A stretch of DNA of 64,000 bases, taken from NCBI RefSeq assembly GCF_013141865.1, contig NZ_RCST01000001.1, positions 3,224,001-3,288,000 on the forward strand, written 5' to 3'. Position 1 is the first letter of the stretch; the number at the start of each line of letters is the position of its first letter. The stretch is from Methylomonas sp. ZR1 (GTDB lineage Bacteria > Pseudomonadota > Gammaproteobacteria > Methylococcales > Methylomonadaceae). The notes beneath the pieces are model-generated. The model was not told where the DNA came from. It saw nothing but the letters and a program-made list of their open reading frames with translations, and did no database searches. The position numbers and the translations under genes were made by a program. Of the stretch, positions 61,419-64,000 are shown in pieces.

Positions 61419-62108
61419 ATGAAAAAGTATGTAGCCGAGTCCTTCGGGACATTTTGGTTGGTTCTTGGTGGCTGCGGTAGTGCGGTATTAGCCGCCGCAT
61501 TTCCGAATGTGGGCATCGGCTTGCTCGGCGTTTCGCTGGCGTTCGGTTTGACAGTACTGACCATGGCCTATGCCATCGGCCATATTTCCGGCTGCCACCT
61601 CAATCCGGCTGTATCGGTTGGCTTGTGGATGGGCGGCCGCTTTCCGGCCAACCAATTGTTGCCTTACATCGTCTCTCAAGTGGTCGGCGCGATTGCGGCC
61701 GGCGGCGTGTTGTATCTGATCGCCAGCGGCAAAGCCGGATTCGACGTAGCCGCCGGCTTCGCCTCCAACGGTTACGGAGAACATTCGCCGGGCGGCTACT
61801 CCCTATTGTCCGCATTAGTTACAGAAGTGGTGATGACCATGATGTTTTTACTGATCATCCTCGGCGCCACCGACGCCCGCGCCCCTGCCGGCCTGGCGCC
61901 TATCGCGATTGGCTTGGGATTAACCTTGATTCACTTGATCAGCATCCCGGTCACCAACACCTCGGTAAATCCGGCTCGCAGCCTGGGTGTAGCGGTTTAT
62001 GTCGGCGATTGGGCCTTGGCACAACTTTGGCTGTTCTGGCTGGCGCCGATTATTGGCGCGGTTTTGGGCGCATTGATTTATCGCTTTATCGGCAGCCCGG
62101 ACGAGTAA
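61419..62108 (+). CDS. aqpZ: aquaporin Z
   Basis: 229 residues with six membrane helices and both pore motifs: [11 protein letters not shown] near 67 and [11 protein letters not shown] near 186. The aromatic/arginine filter region (His in [20 protein letters not shown]) is of the water-selective AqpZ type. GGAG precedes the ATG. It is monocistronic, under the CRP-type site described above. Confidence 0.95.
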
Positions 62109-62168: not shown

Positions 62169-62312
62169 CCATTTTGGCAACATGGCTACCTGCTGCGCGT
62201 CAGCGACAATATTAGGGCCGGATTAATTCAGGCATCGCCAGCCGGCCAGCTATCTTGAAATCAACATTTCGCCAGCGATTCTGATATGGATATAAAAACC
62301 TACCAGGGCTGA

Positions 62313-62540
62313 TCGAATGTATCCGGCGCAATAGCCCTAAATGACCGTTACTCCATCACTGCGGACGACGAAGACAACGAACTAAGCGTGCTCGACCATC
62401 TGACGCAAAATCCCGCCGATCTCGAGGAGCTGAATATCCAAGCCGCGTTCTTTTTTCCGAATAATGAAAACCAGATCGCACTGCTAAGCGACGAGAGCAA
62501 GGACAAGAAAAACTTTCAATGCGTTTCTGTGGGGCTTTAA
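62313..62540 (+). pseudogene. possible 3' remnant of a gene
   Basis: After an in-frame TGA at 62310, 75 codons stay open to a TAA at 62538, but there is no ATG or well-placed alternative start. The translation is acidic and protein-like (Asp/Glu/Asn-rich, with an F-F-F-P-N-N-E-N-Q stretch). It may be the tail of a truncated gene, the front having been lost when neighbouring DNA came in. No family was recognised. Confidence 0.3.
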
Positions 62541-62763
62541 GGGAAATACCCGGTTTTTAGATTCGAATTAAATAAGGTAAAAAACGCCCCGCTTTGAATA
62601 TTTCTACTTCCATCCGGAAGCGCTTCAATAACAAAGCGTATTTGAGCAGGCGACTCGAACCCGCCTTGTATATCACCCTGGTTAGGGCGATGCACAGACA
62701 CCGCATCATTACTTGCTACATACACTTCACAAAATAACACTCAAATAATATTGGAAAATTAAA

Positions 62764-63534
62764 ATGGAAAACTTTGTTATATTGATTGGCGGCCCAGGTT
62801 TATTTATGGGTTGTGATAAAGCTCATGACCAGCGTTGGTCAAATTATATTGTGCCATTGCAGTTGGCTGCGATGAAGAACTTATACAATAAACAACCCAA
62901 GGAGTTGATTCATTGGGTATTATACGAGCCGCCTTATAAAAAAAGATGGGATGCTGACTCAGTTATCACCAAAGCCGAAGAAAAGGAAGATGACGGATAT
63001 AACCTACACAGTATCCGAAAAATGGCAACAGATAAATTAATAGCAGCGGGCGGCACCAGCTATATAAATAAAATTCAAACTATTGCTAAAACCTACAGCA
63101 TTCAATACAAAGGAATTAATCAACCAGAAGACTTTTGGAGCTATCTGCTATCACTGAGCGATAACTCTATTAGCCGGGTTTGGTATAGCGGACATGCTAG
63201 CGGGGATGGATTAATGCTAGCGCTTACTCATAATTCGGCATGTCAAGCGGCTGCCTTTGCTACTGATATGATATATAAAGCAGATATTTTAAAAAATAGC
63301 GCCCTAGTTAAGAAGTTCATCAAAAAACCCAAGCAGGTTTCAAAATTTTATGGATGCTATACCGAAGGCTTCGCAAAAACCTGGAATGGAGTTTTCGGCG
63401 TAGCTAGCGCGGGGGCAAAAAATAAAATCGATTTTGGCGTTGTCGATACTCCATCTAACATAACAAATATAATGGAACGGATTGAAAAAACACCCACTTC
63501 ACTCGGTAATCCCGACTGGACGGAATACAAATAA
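62764..63534 (+). CDS. uncharacterised protein with caspase-like His/Cys arrangement
   Basis: 256 residues, no signal peptide. A hydrophobic first strand (NFVILIGGPG) is followed much later by W-Y-S-G-H144-A-S-G-D-G and then K-F-Y-G-C198-Y-T-E-G. A strand ending G-H and a later strand ending in Cys are how clan CD (caspase-like) peptidases place their catalytic dyad. The spacing of 54 residues is plausible for that fold. The gene is AT-rich compared with its neighbours, suggesting transfer. GGA lies 8 bases before the ATG. The assignment rests on pattern only; no tested relative is known to me. Confidence 0.65.
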   Translation: MENFVILIGGPGLFMGCDKAHDQRWSNYIVPLQLAAMKNLYNKQPKELIHWVLYEPPYKKRWDADSVITKAEEKEDDGYNLHSIRKMATDKLIAAGGTSYINKIQTIAKTYSIQYKGINQPEDFWSYLLSLSDNSISRVWYSGHASGDGLMLALTHNSACQAAAFATDMIYKADILKNSALVKKFIKKPKQVSKFYGCYTEGFAKTWNGVFGVASAGAKNKIDFGVVDTPSNITNIMERIEKTPTSLGNPDWTEYK

Positions 63535-64000
63535 TGTATATAACAGTCCTTGTGAAAACCATCATTTTCGCGCTGCTTTTAATACTTAGCTTCAGCTGCG
63601 ATGCTGTAAATACCGAACAAAAAAATCTTGAACTTCTTTTACCAAAATCCTTTGAGCAAATATATCTCGCCAAATTTGGCCTGGACTTTCCTAAAACATT
63701 AGACATTTTAAATAGATGCATTCAATATAATGACACGCAATGTTTGAAAGCTTATAACGAGGTTATGGAAGGAAAAAAAACACTCCAATCCATTTCCTCC
63801 TCTCATGTCTTAGAAACAACACTAAATATTATTGAAAAAGCCTGTCTTTCCAAAGATGAAAACCTGGCAAATTTTACTTGCTATGGCGGCATTATATCCT
63901 TGTATTTTTATAACTCTCCGGAACAGGATGCCAAAATTCTTCAGCGAATTAAAATCTATCCAAAGAAGATTCAAAACATGATCTTTGATAATGAATTCCA
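63534..64000 (+). CDS. lipoprotein of unknown function (partial, runs off the window)
   Basis: The ATG at 63534 overlaps the previous stop (TAATG), so translation is coupled. The 155 visible codons begin with a hydrophobic signal ending L-S-F-S-C, with the lipidated Cys at residue 22. The mature part is helical and contains several cysteines (in NRCIQ, QCLKA, KACLS and FTCYG). Periplasmic lipoproteins coupled to a putative effector gene are often immunity proteins; that role is only suggested by the arrangement. Base use is as AT-rich as the gene before it. Confidence 0.7.
   Translation, partial: MYITVLVKTIIFALLLILSFSCDAVNTEQKNLELLLPKSFEQIYLAKFGLDFPKTLDILNRCIQYNDTQCLKAYNEVMEGKKTLQSISSSHVLETTLNIIEKACLSKDENLANFTCYGGIISLYFYNSPEQDAKILQRIKIYPKKIQNMIFDNEF

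Follow-up and report, generated by a model that had tools for sequence, protein, structure and literature searches.

Two overlapping genes at the 3′-end of the window analysed here (64,000 nucleotides, bases 3224001-3288000 of a 5.1-Mb contig from a Methylomonas host) probably constitute a mobile effector–immunity cassette whose likeliest carrier would be a type VI secretion system (T6SS), a reading that we hold with moderate confidence. The upstream gene encodes protein A, a predicted clan CD cysteine peptidase, and the downstream gene encodes protein B, an exported-looking helical protein that may serve as its antidote. A first-pass annotation of this DNA had offered either an effector/immunity pair or a signalling or defence module, and we favour the former because B looks exported, A lacks a signal, the two genes travel together, and A alone is found broken. 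More tentatively, the pair may represent a family of interbacterial toxins in which a caspase/legumain-type protease active in the target cell's periplasm is matched by a disulphide-bonded helical inhibitor, and in which a clan CD protease is the T6SS payload rather than a self-processing part; we know of no precedent for such a payload. The features of the pair are as follows.

62764..63534, + strand: protein A, predicted clan CD cysteine peptidase with no evident signal peptide (256 amino acids (aa), ATG start; from open reading frame (ORF), fold and conservation)
63184..63195, + strand: YSGH motif codons, with the predicted catalytic His144
63346..63357, + strand: FYGC motif codons, with the predicted catalytic Cys198
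63532..63536, + strand: TAATG stop/start overlap of A and B
63534..64000, + strand: protein B, exported-looking helical protein, running 154 bases past the window end (L002:3535-4155; 206 aa in the genome; from N-terminus, cysteines and structure model)

Distribution and pairing of the two genes

The pair was found at nine loci: the window, LW13, M. fluvii and G484 (Methylomonas), a contig labelled as a Hahella metagenome-assembled genome (MAG), two copies in G612, and one copy each in G621 and G301, the last three genomes all being members of a single other order within the same class. The locus of the window recurs, 98% identical in DNA, in Methylomonas sp. LW13 (G495), which is listed as the same species. 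Counting the window's own genome wherever it was among those searched, the pair occurs in four of 237 family genomes (two of the four being the same species), in 3/24 genomes of the order of G301, in 2/369 of a class sample and in 1/398 of a phylum sample, the last being the window itself; a scan of genome contigs returned three loci out of 131 stretches. A is 50-58% identical to that of the window in the five more distant copies, full or partial, and the remnant in G301 is 37% identical; for B, identity to the window is 19-36% across the six more distant loci.

Pairing is strict across this range. As the first-pass annotation asked of other genomes, the genes do co-occur: B lies directly after A or an A remnant, on the same strand, at all nine loci, the joint occurrence of two adjacent genes that is looked for in effector–immunity pairs. 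A profile of B found the same genomes as A and no others (4/237, 3/24 and 2/369), and no B without A or an A remnant was seen among the 237, 24 and 369 genomes searched. The nine loci fall in seven different neighbourhoods (in G484, for example, the pair sits among what by eye are sigma-factor-, FecR- and TonB-receptor-like genes) and no third gene common to them was seen in the stretches read by eye, so that A and B seem to move together and alone.

The junction between the genes varies among the loci. In the window B begins, as had been noted, on the TAATG overlap with A (ATG at 63534), from which we would expect translational coupling; TAATG recurs in LW13 and M. fluvii (3/9 loci in all), while the junction reads TAGTG in G301 and ATGA in the shifted frame of G621. 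The genes are separated by 3 bases in the Hahella MAG and by some 5 and some 20 bases in the two G612 copies, and in G484 the start codon of B is not clear-cut at the junction. The departure in composition reported at first pass was likewise borne out, with a GC content of 40.0% for A and 34.0% for B against 52.0% for the whole window.

Protein A is a predicted clan CD cysteine peptidase

The proposed dyad residues are found exactly where the first-pass annotation had put them, His144 within WYSGHA and Cys198 within KFYGC, and both are kept across the copies (His in 8/8, Cys in 9/9). In the structure model, core strands 136-142 and 193-196 sit just before His144 and Cys198 respectively, and the model has a caspase/hemoglobinase-type alpha/beta fold. 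A predicted fold of this kind, with a His-then-Cys dyad that is conserved and placed where core strands end, is what characterizes clan CD, and we therefore regard A as a predicted clan CD cysteine peptidase with a His144/Cys198 dyad and putative enzyme activity. The first-pass annotation is thereby supported on enzyme class as well as on pairing: the findings that it named as refuting, an unrelated fold or homologues lacking the dyad residues and the following gene, were not encountered.

Sequence searches place A in no named family. It has no match in Pfam up to E 10, none in NCBIfam or PADLOC, and none among PDB sequences below E 0.7; two relatives' A proteins gave either nothing in Pfam and NCBIfam or a single chance match at E 0.16, and A matches none of the family models for the named clan CD families (C13, C14, C25, C80 and CHAT). 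A shares with legumain (C13), caspase (C14), gingipain (C25) and CHAT peptidases the predicted alpha/beta fold and a His followed by a Cys, each after core strands, but differs from them in that neither Pfam models nor PDB chains match its sequence, in being a small, single-domain protein with an exported partner, and in having no recognised activation or sensor parts of the known kinds.

Two structural resemblances bear on what kind of clan CD enzyme A may be. The best VIA-align rows are glycosylphosphatidylinositol (GPI) transamidase and legumain-type enzymes, peptide ligases among them, which would suit a transamidase, peptide ligase or cell-wall-peptide enzyme, rather than a protease toxin, with B as its exported partner or substrate; we consider this quite improbable. 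The top Foldseek row is SAVED-CHAT, a defence protease that also appears at row 4 of VIA-align. This likeness, together with a patchy, mobile distribution such as defence genes show, would suit an intracellular caspase-like protease in a defence or signalling module, with B as a non-inhibiting envelope sensor or output, an alternative we think unlikely, if less so than the transamidase. A resembles the protease part of SAVED-CHAT in fold, but neither SAVED nor another sensor is recognised in its 256 aa, modelled as one fold, no sensor gene or other third gene is seen kept with the pair at the loci read by eye, PADLOC finds no match, and its partner is exported.

The N-terminus of A (window 62764-62860) carries the motif GGPG.F.GCDKAHDQ.W.NY, one of the most strongly conserved stretches of the protein although a poorly modelled one; its Cys17, Asp18 and His21/Asp22 could serve a separate function.

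Protein B looks exported

In all nine copies the N-terminus of B has a Lys or Arg followed by a hydrophobic stretch, an export-like feature expected of a periplasmic immunity protein, and the best 12-residue hydropathy is 2.2-3.6 in these copies against 1.1-2.1 in five A proteins. Four cysteines are present in the mature part of every copy, and the structure model suggests a helical protein. The first-pass annotation called B a lipoprotein, of which the export-like N-terminus stands and the lipid anchor is less secure: a strict lipobox pattern fits 2/9 copies, and in G621 the cysteine itself is missing from the site. Under a relaxed pattern seven of the nine qualify, but so do all five A proteins tested, which makes it uninformative. 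Since its SFSC fails the strict pattern, the window's B is possibly rather than surely a lipoprotein.

Damage falls on A

B is open at all nine loci, while A is open at five and broken at four. In M. fluvii an insertion (L006:4485-6001), comprising a gene for a 448-aa protein that looks transposase-like by eye plus flanks, splits A after about codon 14 and leaves B intact; one G612 copy (copy 2) has two stop codons in A; G621 has an early stop near the start of A and a frameshift; and in G301 a piece of an apparently duplicated ATPase gene replaces the first half of A. Such one-sided damage points toward, without proving, an antidote retained after loss of its toxin. It also speaks against the defence or signalling alternative, as 4/9 loci lose A and yet retain B; a further point against that alternative is that a signal-less A and a periplasmic B should not meet within one cell.

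For the window, LW13 and M. fluvii, ratios of non-synonymous to synonymous change (dN/dS) are 0.05-0.11 in A against 0.39-0.73 in B, with few changes separating the sequences. The two G612 copies give 0.10 for a piece of A and 0.16 for B; comparisons over greater distances reach or approach saturation.

Delivery and proposed mechanism

We infer enzyme activity, a delivery route, a periplasmic target and inhibition of A by B in a scheme that would run as follows. Lacking an export signal, A would be synthesized in the cytoplasm and passed to a secretion machine, most likely a T6SS; delivered to the periplasm of an adjacent cell, it would there cut an envelope or periplasmic protein. B would be translated from the overlapping start codon, exported and held in the periplasm (some copies have a clear lipobox), where it might bind and block A injected by sister cells and so protect kin.

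A T6SS is available to most carriers. VipB occurs in 7/8 carrier genomes, and the host has a cluster of VasE, DotU, IcmF, VipA, Hcp, gp25-like, TssF, TssG, VgrG-type and Rhs genes within 32 kb. T6SS effectors with periplasmic immunity proteins, such as the Tae/Tai pairs, are known, and the A–B pair is like them in having a small, signal-less effector, an exported, cysteine-bearing helical partner encoded directly downstream, and a patchy, mobile distribution. It differs in that A is caspase-like, whereas their effectors are amidases, lipases or nucleases, in matching no Pfam or NCBIfam effector or immunity model, and in not adjoining recognised T6SS genes.

Several observations weigh against a T6SS-delivered toxin and its antidote. 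The 7/8 count for VipB is weak evidence because T6SSs are common anyway (54/121 family genomes, 9/24 in the other order), and in one carrier, G621 (86% complete, A broken), no VipB was found. The first-pass annotation had looked to secretion-system genes near the pair; this found no support, as VgrG, PAAR, Hcp and other secretion genes were recognised beside the pair in none of the stretches read (about 6-19 kb each, mostly by eye), and a domain search found no known delivery domain in A. The model of A has a mean predicted local distance difference test score (pLDDT) of 69.8, with 65/256 residues below 50, and the other four models stand at 53.7-62.5; by Foldseek alone the assignment is weak, with no E below 0.001 and with clan CD rows mixed with unrelated folds. 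That all four hits fell in A has a probability of 0.09 by chance if gene length is the only factor, and all four broken copies come from draft assemblies (4, 310, 100 and 60 contigs), where assembly errors could be the source of the stops in G612 and G621. Faster change in B would also fit a mere exported protein.

Orphan effectors exist, so the missing link to vgrG, PAAR or hcp lowers the likelihood of T6SS delivery without removing it; with no gene of this kind recognised next to the pair where flanking DNA was read, delivery of A by this route is a best guess only. That no T6SS gene was recognised near any copy, and no VipB found in G621, would also suit an effector–immunity pair carried by another machine (an extracellular contractile, type I or type IV system), as would the position of the G301 pair behind four large genes, one of which encodes M23 and peptidoglycan-binding domains. 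We rate this as improbable, somewhat below the defence or signalling alternative and above the transamidase: the T6SS, the only machine searched for, is present in seven of the eight carriers, and Pfam and NCBIfam do not recognise the four G301 genes as an injection system.

If the effector–immunity reading with a clan CD toxin is true, the protease class of cell death and of gingipain virulence would join the interbacterial arms, and A would act in a compartment, the periplasm, where to our knowledge few protease toxins are known to act. In B, a caspase-type enzyme would then have a natural inhibitor that is itself a protein, and the pair would be a mobile cassette of small size, invisible to the libraries of families and defence systems used here.

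Two other gene groups may be noted separately. The host T6SS region (L072:4060-11791) may hold a further set of effectors: it encodes a VgrG-type protein and an Rhs protein of 1460 aa that bears a peptidoglycan-binding domain, with small genes downstream. In G301 (L008:10892-18530), the four large genes that precede the remnant pair encode proteins of 777, 427, 370 and 791 aa, two with an SPFLD motif near the start, and are possibly a toxin or injection cluster.

The insertion site

Two further features, both outside the pair, lie on its left.

61419..62108, + strand: aquaporin-like gene (named from its sequence), left conserved neighbour of the insertion site
62286..62540, + strand: DUF3616 pseudogene, the site's resident gene, with about 670 bp of internal loss

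The possible gene remnant that the first-pass annotation saw upstream of the pair is thus real, and is the DUF3616 pseudogene, which is resident at this site; a link between this remnant and the pair is not supported. Four relatives have open versions (296-307 aa) at the same place, that of G471 matching DUF3616, and in G471, G489, G491 and G501 the aquaporin-like gene, an open DUF3616 gene and a 181-aa gene occur in this order without the pair, which in the window occupies the space between the DUF3616 remnant and the 181-aa gene. The left boundary of the insert lies within 62541-62763 and, by comparison with G471, the right boundary within 64155-64287, so that about 1.4-1.7 kb was inserted. 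In G484 the 181-aa gene has no pair beside it, the pair of that genome being located elsewhere.

The insertion spot is close to three tRNA genes. In G490 (L064:2074-3307) and G491 (L065:2753-3986) the space from DUF3616 to the 181-aa gene holds three other ORFs, one for a membrane-like product of 113 aa and two for products of 133 and 109 aa, and this small, variable spot therefore accepts varied cargo.
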